NCBI GenBank assembly: GCA_018648945.1
Contig: JABGQJ010000240.1
Span: forward strand, 1 to 10,177
Reading direction: 5' to 3'
Origin: Victivallales bacterium
Lineage (GTDB): Bacteria; Verrucomicrobiota; Lentisphaeria; Oligosphaerales; Lenti-02
Length of the DNA stretch: 10,177 nt
Part shown: one piece after another, positions 1 to 10,177 of the stretch
How positions within the stretch are numbered: the first letter of the stretch is position 1
Layout: every line of letters begins with the position of its first letter
Program-made: the position numbers and the translations under genes
Notes under the pieces: generated by a model
The model's input: the letters and a program-made list of their open reading frames with translations, nothing else
Databases searched by the model: none
Told to the model about the DNA's origin: nothing

Positions 1-1
1 G

Positions 2-2569
2 GTTCTGGATCTGGTGCATACGCTGGCCGCGTCGGGCCTTGCCCAGCCGCCGCGCCTCTGGCTGGTCACGCGCGGAGCACAGGCGGCCGGGGAGTTGCCA
101 TCGGCCCTGCATCTTGCCCAGTCCCCGATCTGGGGGCTGGCGCGGGTGATCGCCGCCGAGCATCCGGAACTGGGATGCAGTCGCGTCGATCTCGATCCTG
201 GCGGCGACCCAAGTGCAGTCGACCTCCTGGCCGAGGAGATTGCCTTGGATCAGCCGGAGGACCAGATTGCCTATCGCGGCGGCGAACGCTTCGTCGCGCG
301 CTTGCGCCATGCCGGGAGCGGCGACCGGGATGAACTGACTCCCCCGCGCGGCGCTCCCTACCGTGCCGAGATCCTGTCTCGTGGGGAACTCGACAGCGTG
401 GCACTGCACCCCGCTCCCCGGCAGGCACCCGGCCCCGGACAGGTCGAGATCAAGGTGGACGCCACGGGACTGAACTTCCGCGATGTGCTGAACCTGCTGG
501 ACCTGTACCCCGGTGACCCCGGTCCCCTCGGTTGCGAGTGCGCCGGCGAAATCATCGCCGTCGGGGAGGGGGTCGATAGTCTGGGGCCCGGCGACCGGGT
601 AATCGCGTTGGCACCCGCCAGTTTCGCGAGCTACGCGATCACTCAGGCCGAGTTTGCCGTGCCTTTGCCTGCCGGTCTGGAACCGGCAGCGGGCGCCACG
701 ATCCCGATCTGCTTCGCCACTGCCTACCACGCTCTCTGTCGGGTGGGGCAGATGCAGCCTGGTGAACGGGTCCTGATCCACTCGGCGACCGGCGGCGTGG
801 GCTCGGCGGCGATCCAGATTGCCCGACACCTCGGGGTCGAGATCTTCGCCACCGCCGGCAGTTCGGCGAAGCGGGGTTCCCTTGCTTCCCAGGGCATTCG
901 CCAGGTCATGGATTCCCGCTCCCTGGATTTCGCGGACGAGATCATGGCCGCCACCGGCGGGGGGGGAATCGATCTGGTTCTCAACTCCTTGACTGGCGAG
1001 GCGATCGGCAAGGGCCTCTCCGTGCTGCGCCCAGGTGGGCGATTCATCGAGCTCGGCAAAACCGACCTCTGGGACCAGCAGAGAGTCGACCAGAGTGCTC
1101 CCGGAGTCCGTTTCGTGGCGCTTGCTCTAGACGAAATGATGGCGACCGATCCCAAGGACGTCGGCGAATTGCTGAATGCGGTTGCCGAGCGGGTCGCGGA
1201 CGGCACGTTCCGTCCTCTTGACCGGCGCGTGTTCAAGATCCGGCATCTGGTCGATGCCTTCCGGCATATGGCCCGGGCCGAGCACGTGGGCAAGGTGGTG
1301 ATTGAGGCCGAGGCGCCTGCGGACGATGAGCCGCCCGAGTTCTCTCCCCGTCCCGACGGCACCTATCTGATCACCGGTGGATTGGGCGGCCTGGGGCTTA
1401 GGCTTGCGGAGTGGCTGGTCGATGCCGGCGTGCGGCATCTGGTCCTGCTCGGGCGCTCCGGTGCCTCTCCCGAAGCGCGTCTCTCCATTGGGGATCTGGA
1501 GCAGCGGGGCGTGCGGGTCGCGGTGCGTTCGTGCGACGTCTCGTGCCGCGACCAGGTCGCCGAGGTGCTGGCGACCGCACGTGCCGAGATGCCGCCTTTG
1601 CGTGGCCTGTTCCATCTGGCCGGCATCCTGGATGACGGCATTCTCCGCGAGCAGACTCGCGAGCGTTTCGACCGCGTTCTGGCGGCCAAAGCCGTGGGTG
1701 CGTGGCATCTGCACGAGCTAACCCGGGAAGATCCGTTGGATGCATTTGTGCTCTTCTCGTCCGCCGCTTCCCTGCTCGGATCTCCGGGGCAAGGGAACTA
1801 CGCGGCCGCGAATGCCTTCCTGGATGCCTTGGCACACCATCGGCATAGCGAGGAACTGCCTGCTCTGAGTGTGAACTGGGGGGCGTGGGCCGAGGTCGGT
1901 ATGGCCGCCCAGCTCAAGGACAGCGAAGGCGAACGTTGGGCTACAGCCGGCGTGGGTTGGATTGAACCCCATCAAGGCTTCGAGACGCTGGCACAGGTCA
2001 TGGCCGGGAGGAGTGCCCAAGTTGGCGTTTTGCCCATTGATTGGCCGCGCTTCTTCGAACGAATCCCAGTTGGCATGGAGCCCCCCTGGCTAGTCGAGAT
2101 GGCCAAGGGGGCGCGAGCCCCCTCGGTTGCCGAGGACAGCGGGCCGCCCGAATTGCTCGAGAAGCTGCGGGAGGTCACCCCCGGCGAACGCCTCGACACG
2201 GCCGTGCTCTCCCTCCGTCAGCAGGCGGCACGGGTCCTGGCCATGCCCGGGGACGAGCTTCCCGATCCCAGACGCGTCCTGAACGAGCTGGGATTCGACT
2301 CGCTCACGGGGGTGGAGTTCTGCAATCGGGTTGCTCGCTCGATCGGGCAACACCTCAACCCGGCCGTATTGTTCGACTACTCGACCATCGAGCGGCTGGC
2401 CGGCCACGTGGTCCGCGATATTCTGCAGATGGAGACCGATGCGCAGGAGGAGATCCCGGACGTGGCGACCGACACGGTCCGTGAACAGGCCGTGGCCGAG
2501 GTGGCCGAGATGTCCGACGAAGACATGGACGCCCTGGTGAACGAGCAGATCCGCAAGCTCCAGAAGTAG
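2..2569 (+). CDS. Modular type I polyketide synthase, C-terminal part (ER-KR-ACP); 5' end outside window
   Basis: This is the back half of a PKS extension module, which reduces the growing chain while it is held on the ACP. The frame is already open at base 2 with typical PKS linker sequence, so the GTG at 14 is not the true start. Domains in order: the structural, non-catalytic half of the ketoreductase (about 2-340); an NADPH-dependent enoylreductase (about 370-1310) with a GGVG nucleotide loop at 791; the catalytic ketoreductase (about 1355-1910) with TGGLGGLG at 1373, the LDD motif of B-type ketoreductases near 1628 and the active Tyr in NYAAAN at 1799; and an ACP (about 2180-2430) whose GFDSL motif places the phosphopantetheine serine at 2300. 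A charged tail ending in MSDEDMDALV resembles a C-terminal docking element. The ketosynthase, acyltransferase and dehydratase expected before this point are not visible. All motifs seen look intact, so the module is probably active; with a dehydratase it would give a saturated beta carbon. The stop is 3 bases before the next gene. Confidence 0.95.
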   Translation, partial: VLDLVHTLAASGLAQPPRLWLVTRGAQAAGELPSALHLAQSPIWGLARVIAAEHPELGCSRVDLDPGGDPSAVDLLAEEIALDQPEDQIAYRGGERFVARLRHAGSGDRDELTPPRGAPYRAEILSRGELDSVALHPAPRQAPGPGQVEIKVDATGLNFRDVLNLLDLYPGDPGPLGCECAGEIIAVGEGVDSLGPGDRVIALAPASFASYAITQAEFAVPLPAGLEPAAGATIPICFATAYHALCRVGQMQPGERVLIHSATGGVGSAAIQIARHLGVEIFATAGSSAKRGSLASQGIRQVMDSRSLDFADEIMAATGGGGIDLVLNSLTGEAIGKGLSVLRPGGRFIELGKTDLWDQQRVDQSAPGVRFVALALDEMMATDPKDVGELLNAVAERVADGTFRPLDRRVFKIRHLVDAFRHMARAEHVGKVVIEAEAPADDEPPEFSPRPDGTYLITGGLGGLGLRLAEWLVDAGVRHLVLLGRSGASPEARLSIGDLEQRGVRVAVRSCDVSCRDQVAEVLATARAEMPPLRGLFHLAGILDDGILREQTRERFDRVLAAKAVGAWHLHELTREDPLDAFVLFSSAASLLGSPGQGNYAAANAFLDALAHHRHSEELPALSVNWGAWAEVGMAAQLKDSEGERWATAGVGWIEPHQGFETLAQVMAGRSAQVGVLPIDWPRFFERIPVGMEPPWLVEMAKGARAPSVAEDSGPPELLEKLREVTPGERLDTAVLSLRQQAARVLAMPGDELPDPRRVLNELGFDSLTGVEFCNRVARSIGQHLNPAVLFDYSTIERLAGHVVRDILQMETDAQEEIPDVATDTVREQAVAEVAEMSDEDMDALVNEQIRKLQK

Positions 2570-2572
2570 CGT

Positions 2573-5500
2573 GTGAGCCGAAGCATGGAATCGCGACGCA
2601 TGGATGTGTTGGAAGACCGGCTGAAACAGATGACCCCGCTGCAACGCGCGGTGGTCGCCCTCAAGGAAACCCAGGCCCGTCTGGAAGCCTTGGAACAGCA
2701 ACGGGACGAGCCGATCGCGATCGTTGGCATGGCCTGTCGGTTCCCCGGCGGCGCCGATGATCCAGATTCCTACTGGCGCCTGCTCCGCAACGGCGTCGAT
2801 GCCATCCGGGAGATTCCCGCGGAGCGCTGGGATGTTGACAGCTACTACGACCCGGACTCGCGCGCACCCGGCAAAATGAACACCCGCTGGGGTGGGTTCC
2901 TGGACGGGGTGGCGGAGTTCGACAACCATTTCTTCGGCATCTCGGAGCGCGAGGCGACCCAGATGGACCCGCAGCACCGCCTGGTGCTGGAGCTGGCCTG
3001 GGAAGCGCTTGAGGACGCCGGGTTGCCGCCCTCCCGCCTGCGCGGCTCCCGGACCGGTGTGTTCATCGGTCTGTCGCACAGCGAGTACGGCATCATGCTG
3101 TCCTCGGACCTGGCCCAGACCGATGCCTTCGTGGGCACCGGCACGGCGCACTGCATCGCGGCCAATCGGGTTTCGTTCCTCTTCGGCCTCTGCGGTCCCA
3201 GCCTGACGCTGGACGCCGCCTGTTCGTCGTCTCTGGTGAGCGTGCACATGGCGTGCCGGAGTCTTCGCTGCGGCGAGTCGGAGCTGGCCTTGGCGGGAGG
3301 GGTGAGCCTCATCCTGTCGCCGTTGGGCACGGTCAACCTTACCAAAGCCGGCTTTTCGGCACCCGACGGGCGGGTCCGGGCATTTGATGCCAAGGCTTCG
3401 GGTTACGTGCGCGGCGAAGGGGCGGGAATGGTCGTGCTCAAACCCCTTGCCGCTGCGCGGCGCGACGGTGATCGGGTCTACGCCGTGATTCGCGGTTCGG
3501 CGGTCAACCAAAATGGTGCCAGCAACGGCCTGACCGCGCCCAGTGGGAAGGCGCAGGAACGGATGCTGCGCGATGCCTATGCCCAGGCCAAGGTCACGCC
3601 CGGCAAGATTGGCTACGTCGAGACCCAGGGTACCGGAACTGCCCTCGGCGACACCATCGAGGCGCTGGCTCTGGGCAACGTGCTCCGCGAGGGGCGCGCG
3701 GTCGATCAACCATGCGCCATCGGGTCGGTCAAGACCAGTATCGGGCACTTGGAGGCCGCATCCGGGATCGCCAGCCTGATGAAGGCAGTATTGGCGCTGG
3801 AGCATCAGCAGTTCCCCCCCAGTCTCCATTTCGAGACGCCCAACCCGAATATTCCTTTTGCCGACCTGCCTCTGAAGGTGCAGACCCAATTGGCACCATG
3901 GCCGGAATCGGGGGAGCCACGCCTGGCCGGGGTTAGCGCGTTTGGCTTTGGCGGCAGCAATGCCCATGTGGTGCTAACGGAACCGCCCGCGGCGCAACCG
4001 CCGCCCGCCGCGGCGGGCATGGGGCTTCTGCCGCTCTCCGCCCGCACCGATGCGGCCCTGCGCGATCTGGCTTCACGCTATGTGGGGTTCCTGCGGGGTA
4101 CGTCGCTGCCGTGGTTGGATATCTGTGCTACGGCGGGGTCGGGTCGGGACCATCACGATTGCCGCCTGGCCGTTCTCGCCTCCACGCCCGCCTCGGCGAC
4201 TGATCTGCTGGCTGTCTTCCTCGCTGGCCAGGACCGACCGGAACTCGTGGCGGGTCGCAAGCCCTGGGGGCAGGACCTGCATGTGGCTTTCCTGTATTCC
4301 GGAGAGACCGATCCATGGTGCGCGGGGGTACCTCGCCTGGCCGCTGAGATTCCTGGCTTCGTGGCGGCTATGGCGGGCCTCGATGGTCCACTGCAGCGGG
4401 TCGCCGCATTGACTGCCGACCGCGTTCTCCACGACGCTGCGGTTTGGGAGCAGCCAAGCACGGCCTGGCCGTCTCTGGTCGCCGTGCAACTGGCGCTTAC
4501 GGCTTGGTGGCGCACCTGTGGCGTTGGCCCGCAGGTGGCCGTCGGTCGGGGGCTTGGCGAGCTGGCCGCCGCTGCCGCAGCCGGCATCCTGGAAGTCGAT
4601 GAGGCCCTCCGGCTTGCGGCTGCGTTGGCCAGTGGCGATGGTGCCAGGGCGGTGGGCGAACTGACCCATCGGGAGGCCGTCCTGCCGTTCGTCTCCGGTC
4701 TGGACGGACATCTCTACCGCGGCCGCGATTTGTTGCCCGATCATTGGCTGCACTGCGGCGACGCCTGCGGTGACTGGGAATCGGCCCTGGTCGCTTTGGG
4801 CGACCGTCGGCCTGATGTCTGGCTGCACATCGGCTCCGGGTCGCTGGATTGCCCGGAGGTCGTGGTCGCGGCCACACTGGGCAGCGATGGCGAGAATCTG
4901 GGCGGAGCAGCCGTGGGCGCGTTGTATGCTGCCGGGGTGGACATCGACTGGCCCGGGGTCTTCGCATCCGACCGCTGCCCGGTCCGTCTGCCGACCTATC
5001 CGTGGCAACGGCATCGCCTCTGGGCCGAACGCAAGGACTGGTTGGCGGGGGCACCGCCGAGCGGCGCGGATGCCACTGCCATCCCCACATCCCAGGATCC
5101 CGGCTCTCCCGTTGGCGAACCCGTCCAGGAAGCGAACCGGCCCCGTCCTGATCTGGCCGCTCCATATGTCGGCCCCGGCACCGCACTGGAGGAGGTCCTG
5201 GCCCAGGCGTGGACCGAGATCCTGCGTCTTGACCGCGTGGGGGTGCACGACAACTTCTTCGAGTTGGGCGGCGATTCCCTGCAGGCCATGATGCTGCACA
5301 ACCTCCTGCAGGAACAGCTGGGCGAGGTCGTCTATGGCTATGTTCTCTTCCAGGCACAGACGGTCGGCGAACTGGCCGACTACCTGCGCGGTCACTACGC
5401 CGCGACGATTCAGCGTCTCTATCCCGGGGAACCGCAGGTCGAGATCCCGGCACCCGCAGCCGACGTGCTGGCGATCGACGATCGGGCGGTCGCGGGCGTG

Positions 5501-6601
5501 CGGCGTCTGGTTTCGGGGTTTGTCCGTGTCCCGGGGGCGGCTGTGCCGGTGCGGGAGAAGAACCCGCGCGCCGTGTTCATTCTGGCGCCGCCGCGGAGCG
5601 GTTCCACGCTGCTGCGGGTTATGCTTGCCGGTCACGAGGGGATTTTCGCGCCGCCGGAGCTGGAGCTTCTTGGCTTTGACAGTGTCGCCGACCAGCAGGC
5701 CGCCTACGCCGGCGTGCCGGGGAACTGGCTGGAGGGTTTTGTCCGGGCGGTGATGGAGGTGTCCTCGTGCGGCGTCGACGAAGCGCGGCGAACGATTCGT
5801 GAGTGGGCGGACTCCGGGCTTGGCGTGCAGGAGGCGTACCGCTGGTTGCAGGCGTCGATCGGAGAACGTCTCCTGGTGGACAAGACGCCGAGCTATTCGG
5901 GGTGGAGTGAGGTGCTGGGGCGGGCCGAACAGCTTTTCGACTCGCCCCTGTATATCCATCTCATGCGGCACCCGTGCGGCATGATCCGCTCGTACGTGGA
6001 GGCCAATCTGCACGAGGAGACGCAGATGCGTTTCGGGTTCGGCGGGCAGGCCCCCTTCCCCCCGCGGCAGATGGCTGAACTGGTGTGGACCATCGGTCAC
6101 CAGAACATCGTGGGGTTGCTGGCGGGGGTTCCGGCCGAACGCCAGCACCGGCTTCGCTTCGAGGACCTGGTGCGGCGTCCCGAACAGGCCATGCGCGAGG
6201 TCTGCCGCTTCCTGGGTCTCGAGTTCCGGGGCGGGATGATCCTGCCCTACGAGCACCCCGAGCGCAAGATGGTGGACGGGGTGACTGCCCAGGACCGGAT
6301 GAGCGGCGACCAGAAGTTCCTGTTCGCGCACAAGGCCATCGACCCTGCCGTGGCCGATGCCTGGAAGCAGCATCTGGCCAGCGACATCCTCGGCCCGCCC
6401 GCCCGGCAGTTGGCCGCCGACTTCGGCTACGAACATCTCGGGGAGGCTCCCGCAGCCATGGCCGACGGACCCACCTCCCTCGTCACCCCTGCGAACCAGG
6501 ATGACGCCGAAGCTCTGCTGGGGCGCCTGGACGAACTATCCGACGACGAGGTGGCAACCCTGCTGCATGCGCACTTGGACGACGAGGACACCCATGACTA
6601 G
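2573..6601 (+). CDS. PKS subunit: non-elongating ketosynthase, degenerate acyltransferase, carrier protein, sulfotransferase
   Basis: A 1342-residue multidomain subunit between a reducing PKS and an NRPS. Residues 10-45 form a charged helical N-terminal docking/linker region. The ketosynthase (about 46-470) keeps nucleophile Cys217 (ACSSS) and the second catalytic histidine, His392 (SIGHLE), but the usual HGTGT motif reads QGTGT, with Gln352. The linker at 484-565 is normal. Residues 568-800 align with an acyltransferase, but GHSxGE reads GRGLGE (Gly660 for the catalytic Ser) and the segment carrying the catalytic His is missing. The post-acyltransferase motif YPWQRHRLW (809-817) is kept. A PCP-like carrier (about 868-940) has LGGDSL with Ser902. 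A sulfotransferase follows (998-1289) with PAPS loops at 1004-1014 and 1127-1143. The acidic tail (1315-1342) resembles a docking element. The family normally extends the chain by two carbons; I infer that this one does not, and instead holds the chain for sulfation. GTG 2573 gives the longest frame; ATG 2585 or 2600 are possible, and none has a strong ribosome site. Confidence 0.93.
4274..4972 (+). other. Degenerate acyltransferase domain (catalytic Ser and His lost) inside the 2573-6601 subunit
   Basis: The acyltransferase normally loads malonyl or a similar extender onto the carrier using a Ser-His pair. Here the opening GQGxQ-type motif is unrecognisable ([10 protein letters not shown]), the nucleophile elbow is GRGLGE, with Arg (CGG, 4547) and Gly (GGG, 4550) where His and Ser belong, and about 100 or more residues expected after the LRLAAALAS helix are absent. 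That missing part is the small subdomain with the extender-selecting GHAFHS-type motif and catalytic His. The sequence resumes at LPFVSGLDG (4682), equivalent to the C-terminal acyltransferase portion, and runs into a normal post-acyltransferase linker. The reading frame is intact throughout, so this is a retained inactive scaffold and not a frameshifted relic. Confidence 0.85.
5564..6439 (+). other. Embedded PAPS-dependent sulfotransferase domain of the 2573-6601 subunit
   Basis: This domain would transfer a sulfonate group from PAPS to a hydroxyl (or amine) of a carrier-bound chain. The 5'-phosphosulfate loop is [11 protein letters not shown] (residues 1004-1014). KTPSYS (1104-1109) and the 3'-phosphate motif [17 protein letters not shown] (1127-1143) provide Arg1132 and Ser1140, the usual pair that binds the 3'-phosphate. 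Its position after the carrier protein matches the ACP-sulfotransferase order of CurM (curacin) and the cyanobacterial olefin synthases. In those systems a thioesterase follows, and sulfation of a beta-hydroxyl drives terminal alkene formation. No thioesterase is present here, so that off-loading reaction is not expected and the sulfate may stay on the product or act as a leaving group in the chain. Domain identity is secure; the substrate is unknown. Confidence 0.88.
6584..6588 (+). promoter_or_regulatory. Ribosome binding site for the NRPS gene
   Basis: GAGGA lies 5 bases before the ATG at 6594, inside the last codons of the preceding gene. It is a good Shine-Dalgarno match at suitable spacing and supports the ATG start that overlaps the upstream stop, implying translational coupling of the two subunits. 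Confidence 0.6.
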
Positions 6602-9600
6602 CGGTCCTTCCCCCGCCCGAGAACTGAGCGCCGAGCAGCGTCGCGAGCTGTTGCGCCAGGTGCTGGAACGCAAGGTGCAGCAGGGGCGGAGCTATCCGGT
6701 TTCACTGGGGCAGGAGGTCCTGTGGTTCCTTGATCGCCTGGACCCCGGCCGCCCGACCTATGGCTTTTATCCCGCACTGCGCCTCCGCGGCCCCCTCGAC
6801 CTCGCCGTGCTGGAACGTTGCGTCGGGGAGATCCTGCGTCGGCATGACATCCTGCGGACCACGTTCCCGGAAGTGGACGGTGCCCCTGTGCAGCGCGTGG
6901 CCCCGTTCCGGCCGTACCACCTGGCGGTGGTGGATCTGAGCGGCTTGCCGGCGGCGGGACAGGAAGCCGAGGTTCACCGGATCGTCGGCGAGCGTCCGGC
7001 GCTGGATCTGCACAACGGGCCGGTTGTTCGCGTCCAGGCGCTGCGCCTGGGGGAAGGTGAGCACGTGGTCCTCCTGCATATCCACCACATCGCGTTCGAC
7101 GGCTGGTCGATGGGAGCGCTAGGGCGCGAGATTCTCGCCCTGTATCCGGCCTTCCTGGCCGGGCGTCCGTCGCCGCTGCCCGAGTTGCCGATCCAGTACG
7201 CTGACTTTGCCGTCTGGCAACGGCAGTTGATGCAGTCCGAACGGCTGGATATGCTCCGCACCCACTGGCAGGCACGACTGGCCGATCTGCCGCCCCTCGA
7301 CCTGGCCACGGACTACCCCCGTCCGTCCGTCCGCACGTCCCATGGCGACACACTGCCAATGGCCTTCTCTCCTGAGTTGAGCCGAGCCGTGCAGGAGTTC
7401 AGCCGTCGGGAGCGCGTGACCCCGTTCATGACGTTGCTCGCGGGGTTTCAGGAATTGCTGCGCCGCTACAGTGGGCAGGAAGATTTCGCCGTCGGCACGC
7501 CCACTGCCAACCGCCGCCAGAAGAACGTCGAGCCCCTGATCGGGTACTTCATCAATGTCCTGGTCCTGCGGGCCGACCTGCATGGCGATCCCACTTTCCG
7601 CGAACTGGTCCAGCGCGTCCGGCAGACCTCCCTCGACGCCTACGAGAACCAGGATCTGACGCTGGACAAGATCGCGGAAGCCGTGCAGCCCGACCGCGAT
7701 CTCAGCCGACACCCGCTTTTCCAGGTGATGTTCGTTCTGCAGAACAACCCGCGCCTGTCGTTCCGTTTTCCCGGCTTGGAGGTGGTCCCGTTGGGCACTG
7801 TCGAGCATGCCCGCACGGCGAAGTTCGAGCTGACCATGCCGCTCAGGATCACGCCAGACGGCCTCTTCGAGGGGGATCTGAACTTCAATACCGACCTGTT
7901 CGCTCCCGGCACCGCCCGGCGGATGATCGCGCACTTCCAGATGGTGCTGGCAGATGCCCTGGTCGATCCGGACCGCCCTCTCTCCCGCCTGGGACTGCTG
8001 ACCGACGCCGAGCGGCAGACCGTGGTGTCGGACTGGAACGCCACGGCCAAGGCGCTCCCCGAGGCAGTCGGCGTGGAACAGCTCTTCGCCGCTCAGGCGG
8101 CCCGGTTGCCGCATGCCGAGGCGGTGGTGGATGGCACCCGACGCTGGACCTACGGGCAACTCAACGAGGACGCCAACCGCCTGGCCCGGTACCTGCAACG
8201 GCAGGGGGTGGAACCCGAGGTGACCGTTGGCATCTGTCTGGAACGGTCGGCAGAGTTCGTCCTTGCGGTTCTGGCCGTGCTCAAAGCTGGCGGTGCCTAT
8301 GTCCCCCTGGACCCGACCTACTCGCGGGACGCGCATGAACGACTCCACTTCATGTTGGCGGACGCTGGTGTGTCGCTCGTGTTGACCAATGCCGGGAATG
8401 CAATTGCCGCCAGGGGAGGCGAGGGCGGTTCGTCTCCGAATCTGGTTCTGCTGGACGGGGATGCCGAGGCCATCGCAGCGGGGAGTGCCGAGGATGTCGC
8501 GAGCGCCGCCACGCCCGCATCGTTGGCCTACATCGTCTACACCTCCGGTTCGACCGGTCGCCCCAAGGGCGTGATGGTGACGCGTGACAACCTGCTGAAC
8601 GCGTACTGCGGCTGGGAGCAGTCCTACCGGCTCGATGGTGAGTTGTCCACGCACCTACAGATGGCGAGCGCTGGATTCGACGTGTTCTCCGGGGATCTGG
8701 CTCGGGCGCTGGGCTCGGGTGGCAAGCTGGTCCTTTGCCCCCGGGAGATCCTGCTGTCGGCCACAGAGCTGCTCGACCTGCTGCGACGCGAACGGGTGGA
8801 CGTGGCGGAGTTCGTCCCCGTGGTCCTCCGCAATCTGGTACAGCACCTGGAGGACACCGACCAGCGTCTCGACTCCCTGCGGTTGGCGGTTGTCGGCTCG
8901 GACGCCTGGTATGTGGAGGACCACCGGCGGATGCTGGCGGTTCTGGCCCCCCAAGCGCGGTTGGTGAACTCCTACGGCCTGACCGAGGCCACGATCGACA
9001 GCTCCTTCTTCGAGAGTGATGCGCGGGCACTGCCGGAGACCGGTATGGTACCGATCGGCCGTCCCTTCGCCAATGTGCGGCTGTATGTGCTGGATTCGCA
9101 TCGGCGGCCGGTACCTATTGGCGTGCCCGGCGAGCTGTATGTCGGTGGTCGCGGGGTCGCGCGGGGCTATGTCAACCGTCCCGATCTGGACGCCGAACGG
9201 TTCGTGGCAGATCCATTTGCGGGGGAGCCCGGCGCGCGCCTATGCCGCACCGGCGATCGGGTTCGCTGGCGCGCCGAAGGGCAGATAGAGCTACTCGGTC
9301 GGGTGGACGAGCAGGTGAAGATCCGCGGCTTCCGCATCGAGCCCGGCGAGGTCGAGGAGGTCCTCCGGGAGCACCCGCTCCTGGAAAACGCCGCCGTCCT
9401 GGCCCTGGAGCGGACCCCCGGGGACATGCAGTTGGCAGCCTACGTCGCGGGTCGGGACGAAACGCCGCCCACCGTGGCCGAAATGCGTCGTTTCCTCGGC
9501 GGACGCCTGCCGGACTACATGATCCCCTCGGCCTTTGTCGTGCTTGATGCTCTCCCCACGACTGCGAGCGGGAAGGTGGACCGACGGTCGCTGCCTGCGC

Positions 9601-10177
9601 CGGATTGGCGGCGTCTTGGGGAAGCGGGGAAGGGGCGGCCGCCGCAGACCGACACCGAGCAGAAGCTGGCAGCCTTGTGGGCCGAAGTTCTCGGGGTGGA
9701 GCGAGTGACCGCCGAGGACAACTTCTTCGAACTTGGCGGGAATTCGTTGCTGGCCGTTCGTGTGGGCGCGCGAATCCGCAACGAAATGGCGCTGAACCTG
9801 CCCCTGGCTGTACTGTTCACGTCTCCCACCCTTGCGGGGCTGGCGGCGCGGATCGAGGAACTGCAGGCGTCCGGTCTTGGCAGCGATCTGCCGACCATTC
9901 CGAGGGCGTCCCGCGAAGCCCCGGTGCCTCTCTCCTTCGCCCAGGAACGATTCTGGTTCGTCCACCAATTGGCGGCGGGCACGCCGATCCTGAATCTGCA
10001 TGTCGCCCTGCCCATCTCCGGGGCGCTGGACATCGCGGCATTCCGCCAGACCATCCAGGACGTAGTCCAGCGCCACGAGTCGCTGCGGACAACGTTCGTC
10101 GGGACGGCGGACGGGCAAGCCGTGCAAGTCGTGGCCCCGTTCAGACATCTGGAGCTGCCTGTGGAGGATCTGAGCCA
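6594..10177 (+). CDS. Non-ribosomal peptide synthetase, N-terminal part (C-A-PCP-C); 3' end outside window
   Basis: I translated this frame by hand from ATG 6594; it stays open for 1194 codons to the right edge. It condenses the polyketide chain from the previous subunit with an amino acid and passes the product on. A short helical N-terminus (residues 8-32) precedes a condensation domain (about 35-470) with the catalytic motif HHIAFDG (His164, His165, Asp169); its opening [13 protein letters not shown] resembles condensation domains at PKS-to-NRPS junctions. The adenylation domain (about 492-1003) has [11 protein letters not shown] (649-659), NSYGLTE (792-798), CRTGDR and the lysine of ASGKVDR (Lys994). 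The PCP has LGGNSL with the phosphopantetheine Ser1051 (9744). A second condensation domain begins near 9918 ([13 protein letters not shown]), typical of ordinary L-L peptide elongation, and is cut before its active site. No epimerase or methyltransferase domain is seen. It overlaps the upstream stop by 8 bases, so it is co-translated with that gene. Confidence 0.95.
8067..9605 (+). other. Adenylation domain with an ornithine-like specificity code
   Basis: This domain selects an amino acid and activates it as the AMP ester. Aligning by the FD, GS and NSYG motifs to the GrsA numbering gives the pocket residues D696, V697, G700, E739, V766, G768, S793, I801, D802 and K994, that is DVGEVGSIDK. 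From memory, the ornithine code of gramicidin S, bacitracin and fengycin synthetases is DVGEIGSIDK or very near it, which differs only by Ile to Val. The two acidic pocket residues fit a substrate with a side-chain amine. The alignment was made by eye, so the call is a prediction; lysine, diaminobutyrate or another basic residue remain possible. Confidence 0.55.

Follow-up and report, generated by a model that had tools for sequence, protein, structure and literature searches.

A predicted chain-relaying ketosynthase-carrier-sulfotransferase subunit at a polyketide-nonribosomal peptide junction in a Victivallales bacterium

We analysed a 10,177-nucleotide stretch of Victivallales DNA (contig JABGQJ010000240.1, positions 1 to 10,177; hereafter the window), in which one single open reading frame (ORF), 2573-6601 (+), encodes a ketosynthase (KS), an acyltransferase (AT), a carrier and a sulfotransferase (ST) in this order according to Pfam. 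The subunit is probably a non-elongating relay derived from a cis-AT polyketide synthase (PKS), which would take over an acyl chain by transacylation, allow its sulfation on its own carrier and hand it to the condensation (C) domain of a nonribosomal peptide synthetase (NRPS). The same stripped design occurs in dozens of related bacterial proteins, which suggests repeated use as a relay and not a gene that has broken down.

Extension residues are replaced in the window subunit

The frame counts 1342 codons from a GTG; ATG 2600 is the likelier start, and the database copy of the protein (P0001, 1333 aa) begins there. Domain and catalytic residues are numbered from the GTG, for which the positions 352 and 660 given in the original prediction are correct. 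Pfam placed the KS at residues 46-421, a linker at 423-552, PP-binding at 875-938 and Sulfotransfer_3 at 1001-1218, and the Acyl_transf_1 match (residues 573-683) covered only profile positions 2-114 of 319. The features of the subunit are as follows.

2573..6601 (+): relay subunit, predicted non-elongating ketosynthase (KS0)-AT remnant-peptidyl carrier protein (PCP)-ST, from frame and Pfam; likely start ATG 2600
2600..2707 (+): helical stretch N-terminal to the KS (predicted helices 2-18 and 22-44), a probable docking helix
2708..3835 (+): ketosynthase, predicted KS0; Cys217 and His392 present, Gln352 at the HGTGT His
3221..3223 (+): KS Cys217 codon, kept (translation, alignment)
3626..3628 (+): Gln352 codon (CAG) within QGTGT (translation, alignment)
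3746..3748 (+): KS His392 codon (translation)
4289..5032 (+): acyltransferase remnant; GRGLGE replaces GHSxGE, small subdomain including SHAFHS deleted (Pfam, alignment)
4544..4552 (+): G658-R659-G660 codons at the G-H-S of active ATs (translation)
4550..4552 (+): Gly660 codon (GGG), site of the AT nucleophile (translation, alignment)
5195..5386 (+): PCP-type carrier, LGGDSL (Pfam, alignment)
5276..5278 (+): carrier Ser902 codon (translation)
5549..6442 (+): in-line sulfotransferase, relative of the CurM/olefin-synthase ST domains; [18 protein letters not shown] and RHP motifs intact
6500..6598 (+): C-terminal tail ([17 protein letters not shown]; translation), probably docking to the NRPS

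The KS retains Cys217 and His392 and carries Gln352 in place of the HGTGT His, a pattern from which we predict a KS0. In the AT, Gly-Arg-Gly (658-660) stands where Gly-His-Ser is expected. Compared with three intact ATs, those of the upstream modules at loci L001, L002 and L069, a block of about 85-90 residues including SHAFHS with the catalytic His is missing, GQG reads GET, and the Ser motif and YPWQR lie 149 residues apart versus 246 in all three. No damage is seen at carrier Ser902 or in the ST motifs, and the carrier is of the PCP type, not the acyl carrier protein (ACP) type. Within the subunit, Pfam found no ketoreductase (KR), no thioesterase (TE) after the ST, and no glyceric-acid, FkbH or adenylation (A) domain that could load the carrier. 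Alignment and translation thus bear out the damage to KS and AT described in the original prediction (His to Gln, Ser to Gly plus a deletion), together with its intact KS Cys, carrier Ser, ST motifs and unbroken 1342-codon frame.

The same losses recur among relatives

A search with the ST region returned 1234 proteins, of which the best 120 were taken (P numbers denote proteins, L numbers loci). The KS-ST alignment comprised the window and 34 KS-bearing proteins among these; two entries were excluded, P0001 because it is the window protein and P0118 because its motif matched by chance. Over these 35 rows the KS Cys column reads C 34 and gap 1, the HGTGT His column Q 23, H 9, S 2 and gap 1, the AT Ser column G 29, S 2, R 1 and gap 3, and the His392-equivalent column His in 35/35. 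A second search with the AT remnant returned 152 proteins; its best 120 included 109 new ones. Among the matches listed, P0239-P0259 have a degenerate AT and no ST. The 20 of them with a KS keep the Cys in every case, show Q 19 and H 1 at the HGTGT His, and have G 18, E 1 and L 1 at the AT Ser. The next seven KS rows (P0260-P0266) carry GHS and His, and 81 of the 82 later KS rows carry His and one Asn.

Taken over 53 related KS domains (32 with ST, 21 without), the HGTGT position is Gln in 43 and His in 10. Gln was absent from 238 background KS domains of proteins P0121-P0238 (H 235, N 1, F 1, S 1), which were retrieved by similarity to the window KS and so form a near rather than a random background. 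Gln at this position and a dead AT co-occur, the ten His-keeping relatives excepted (P0023-P0027, P0032-P0034, P0038 and P0255), whose AT is dead or missing. Most homologues share the Gln and Gly of the window, a point that the original prediction had put forward for checking. Homologues whose AT still works at this locus, named there as a ground for rejection, were looked for, and none was found among the relays. Two further proteins, P0109 and P0120, have a KS with SATGT and Gly at the AT Ser, followed by carrier, ST and TE; they lie outside the relay clade and possibly represent a second, independent loss of extension.

The AT deletion is likewise shared. The same block is absent and GQG is gone in the relay ATs of L002, L003 and L069; the distance from Ser motif to YPWQR has a median of 157 residues in the relays (measurable in 33/58); and a HAFH-like motif occurs in 0/58 relays versus 3/3 intact ATs. 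In P0025, P0030 and P0031 of the KS-ST set the AT stretch is nearly absent. Six relatives (P0023, P0029, P0030, P0031, P0035 and P0043) still have a KR, and all six have lost its catalytic Tyr, replaced by E, F, I, F, L and F, respectively. This Tyr is intact in the upstream PKSs of the window and L001, and in L090 and L091. The latter two are Planctomycetota ST modules (L090, 7731-14243 (-); L091, 10662-15677 (-)) that end in an alpha/beta hydrolase, resemble olefin synthase and retain HGTGT as well as the KR Tyr. The L090 AT is shortened with Gly for Ser; in L091 no AT is seen, and its KS is truncated where the contig stops. It seems that dead ATs turn up repeatedly near these STs.

Sequence identity follows the same division. 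Among 18 Gln-type members (153 pairs), mean identity is 73.5 percent for the KS, 67.1 for the carrier, 61.1 for the ST and 38.8 for the AT remnant, and the KSs of the window and P0008 are 93 percent identical; the three intact upstream modules show 71-79 percent for the KS and 62-69 for the AT. Conservation of KS, carrier and ST while the AT remnant drifts argues that the module is kept for the former three. Selection for a new job, as originally suggested, accords with residue losses across the clade and with the dead KRs; loss of the KS His, however, is not universal.

Descent of the relay

The KSs of the relays group in a single clade (SH-aLRT 99 with 35 rows, 98 with 52 rows); the extending KSs of adjacent upstream modules lie outside it. 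On the 52-row tree the HGTGT His position changes four times, the deepest branches are ST-bearing and the ST-less rows fall mainly in one later branch; constraining the latter together was not rejected (p-AU 0.613). Our reading is that the clade had an ST from early on, with one or a few later losses (3 state changes); it calls for caution, since the two sets came from different searches. The relay STs also form one clade (38 rows), apart from L090, L091 and L066; they branch with NRPS in-line STs and away from the TE-ended PKS modules L090/L091 (FastTree, with long branches flagged). KSs of proteins without a Pfam AT (P0147, P0166, P0167, P0169 and P0228) fall outside the relay clade in the 35-row tree, which makes an origin separate from trans-AT KSs likely, not proved, as trans-AT KSs were not deliberately placed in the trees. 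We propose that the relay is a clade derived by stripping an extending module.

The relay precedes an NRPS and mostly follows a PKS

Six loci were readable: the window, L001 and L002 (Planctomycetaceae), L003 (Verrucomicrobiia), L069 (same genome as L003) and L121. The neighbours in the window are as follows.

2..2569 (+): upstream PKS subunit with C-terminal tail, 5' end beyond the window; likely chain donor (Pfam)
about 431-1303 (+): its enoylreductase (ER; Pfam, GGVGSAA)
1358-1894 (+): its ketoreductase (Pfam; GGLGGLG and S-Y-N)
2213-2410 (+): its carrier (Pfam, GFDS)
6594..10177 (+): downstream NRPS, C-A-PCP and the beginning of a second C, running past the window end (domain search)

An ER-KR-carrier PKS lies directly upstream in five of the six loci (window, L001, L002, L069 and L121). 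The position before an NRPS, as at the PKS/NRPS junction named in the original prediction, recurs in all six, an NRPS C domain following the relay in each and being fused to it in L069 and L121. The lines of L001, L002 and L069 begin with an AMP-binding-carrier protein, which from its AMP-dom_DIP2-like match we read as a starter of the fatty acyl-AMP ligase (FAAL) type. Their upstream PKSs carry their own intact AT and keep the dehydratase (DH; HxxxGxxxxP, LDSxFQ), ER and KR motifs, and look fully reducing; the DH region of the window's upstream PKS lies beyond the window. The first A domain of the downstream NRPS (window 8064-9593) has the code DVGEVGSIDK, and that of L002 DVGEAGSIDK. The former matches what we take to be the ornithine code at 9/10 positions and is presumably ornithine-like.

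At L003 a glycosyltransferase-like gene immediately precedes the ST-bearing relay (5471-11059), and the opposite strand carries an alpha-L-rhamnosidase-like gene. The L001 relay gene is split into overlapping frames, 6982-8694 and 8453-11044; P0009, which is nearly identical, is one frame, and the split is probably an assembly error.

Proposed mechanism and alternatives

The carrier of the upstream PKS would pass its acyl chain to KS Cys217, as the intact Cys and the gene order suggest. With Gln at the HGTGT His, known KS chemistry predicts no decarboxylation of an extender, and an AT that has lost Ser and His would not load one. The chain would then move unextended to Ser902 of the PCP-type carrier, where the ST may transfer sulfate from 3'-phosphoadenosine-5'-phosphosulfate (PAPS) to a hydroxyl of the bound acyl group. 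Finally, the C domain of the next subunit would couple the chain to an amino acid that, judged by the A-domain code, is probably ornithine. The sulfation step draws on homology to CurM and olefin-synthase STs and on the Ser/Thr/Tyr bias of A domains before carrier-ST pairs. As one branch (L069, L121 and 20 listed proteins) keeps the relay without an ST, relaying appears to be the conserved job and sulfation optional; the predicted relay with ST stands at the sequence level, whereas holding the chain for sulfation does not survive as the only reason why it is kept.

Several observations weigh against this reading. L003 has no upstream PKS. The His retained in 10/53 relay KSs means that its loss is not strictly required. 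Holding the ST-bearing rows together was only marginally rejected (p-AU 0.0486). The Ser/Thr/Tyr control, which used A-domain codes, left 7/36 and 48/79 A domains unassigned. Moreover, with intact DH, ER and KR upstream a saturated chain is expected, with no obvious hydroxyl to sulfate. If the upstream PKS is fully reducing, the hydroxyl would come from the starter acid, an incomplete cycle or an enzyme not seen; an incomplete survey of L070 ORFs (seven upstream of the FAAL-like gene, 5200-15787, plus two) found no hydroxylase.

The fate of the sulfate admits another interpretation. The relay ST is homologous over its length to the STs of CurM and olefin synthase, the closest solved structures (4gbm, 4gox; 37-38 percent identity); as in those two systems, sulfate could be a leaving group yielding an alkene or ring rather than a retained decoration. 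We consider this rather unlikely, as the subunit lacks a TE, a C domain comes next, and the relay STs group with NRPS in-line STs and not with L090/L091 in the tree with flagged long branches; it would leave the relay itself unchanged. Elsewhere, A domains immediately preceding carrier-ST pairs show a strong bias to Thr, Ser and Tyr by their codes, a possible rule for predicting in-line sulfation. Other line-ups were AMP-binding-KR-carrier-ST (L089, 5296-10635, Planctomycetota), FkbM methyltransferase-carrier-ST-C-A (L008, 6815-15598, a cyanobacterium) and tandem carrier-ST pairs (T-ST-T-ST) within one NRPS protein (L039, 5198-15496).

Extension may also persist if malonyl arrives in trans, the way AT-less modules obtain it, and the Gln KS still condenses to some degree. 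The His-keeping relay KSs favour this, as do L090, whose HGTGT and KR are intact beside a shortened AT with Gly for Ser, and L091 without an AT: AT loss alone need not mean that extension has ceased. Against it stand Gln at the decarboxylation His in 43/53, the KR Tyr lost in 6/6 and the PCP-type carrier, and we regard it as improbable, although no search aimed at a trans-AT gene beside these loci was made. Still less credible is decay with bypass of the module, in which the carrier upstream would feed the NRPS directly and the relay would serve only as a scaffold. The dead AT, its drift (38.8 percent) and the dead state of any KR present would suit such decay; the KS Cys (34/34), the His392 equivalent (35/35) and the ST motifs are nevertheless kept, relay KS identity is as high as in active modules, and the relay persists at a comparable junction in the branch that has no ST. 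A sequencing or assembly artefact, for which an isolated contig and the split L001 frames might speak, can be dismissed, as the same residues recur in independent assemblies of several sources and the 1342-codon frame is open.

For the clade as a whole, the chances seem about even that the relay is a standing adapter from fully reducing, FAAL-started PKSs to NRPSs, that it arose by stepwise loss of AT, KR and KS decarboxylation with a KS0 separate from those of trans-AT PKSs, and that it exists in a plain and a sulfating form, the latter producing sulfated acyl lipopeptides in bacteria that include Planctomycetes and Verrucomicrobia. If so, an assembly line can shed chain extension yet keep transfer, and intermediates of the loss (dead KR present, AT remnant, AT gone) are readable in living sequences. 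It would also offer a KS0-carrier-ST cassette, ready to use where a chain is to be sulfated on line at a PKS-to-NRPS switch, and product predictions that count each KS as an extension would be one unit off wherever such a relay occurs.

Comparison with known systems

The nearest working analogue of the proposed relay is MmpE of mupirocin biosynthesis (KS0-ACP-oxidoreductase). According to the excerpted text of PMC7619045, mass spectrometry showed that the chain is taken over from the upstream carrier, and the KS0 passes the chain to its own ACP, on which an in-cis domain epoxidises it. On a single subunit, MmpE and the predicted relay each join a non-elongating KS to a carrier of the same subunit and a tailoring domain in cis; MmpE as described there is trans-AT and epoxidising, whereas the relay has an AT remnant, a sulfotransferase and an NRPS partner (PMC7619045). 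Because of that remnant and the intact ATs upstream in L001, L002 and L069, the relay does not belong with the trans-AT systems.

CurM and olefin synthase have the order KS-AT-KR-ACP-ST-TE, the TE releasing an alkene, and place a homologous ST behind the carrier of a PKS module; in the excerpted account they extend, reduce and release, while the relay has lost extension, has no KR or TE and would send the chain to an NRPS (PMC3903477). The excerpts on cyanopeptolin (oci) and dysinosin (DysB) link an in-line ST to a sulfated N-terminal glyceric acid that remains in the product (PMC2533009, PMC6520454). Like these, the relay has its ST inside the assembly line, and its carrier-ST pair followed by a C domain is of the oci/DysB type; there, glyceric-acid or FkbH domains load the substrate (PMC2533009, PMC6520454), whereas the relay would take its own from a PKS via a KS. 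Algal PKSs have terminal KS0 domains with the HGTGT His replaced by Ser, where loss of the condensation His is likewise read as non-elongating; in those domains the Cys, too, is displaced, and the excerpted text mentions no sulfotransferase (PMC4661987). Judged from its sequence, the relay subunit would unite a KS0 of cis-AT descent, an ST and handover to an NRPS in one protein.

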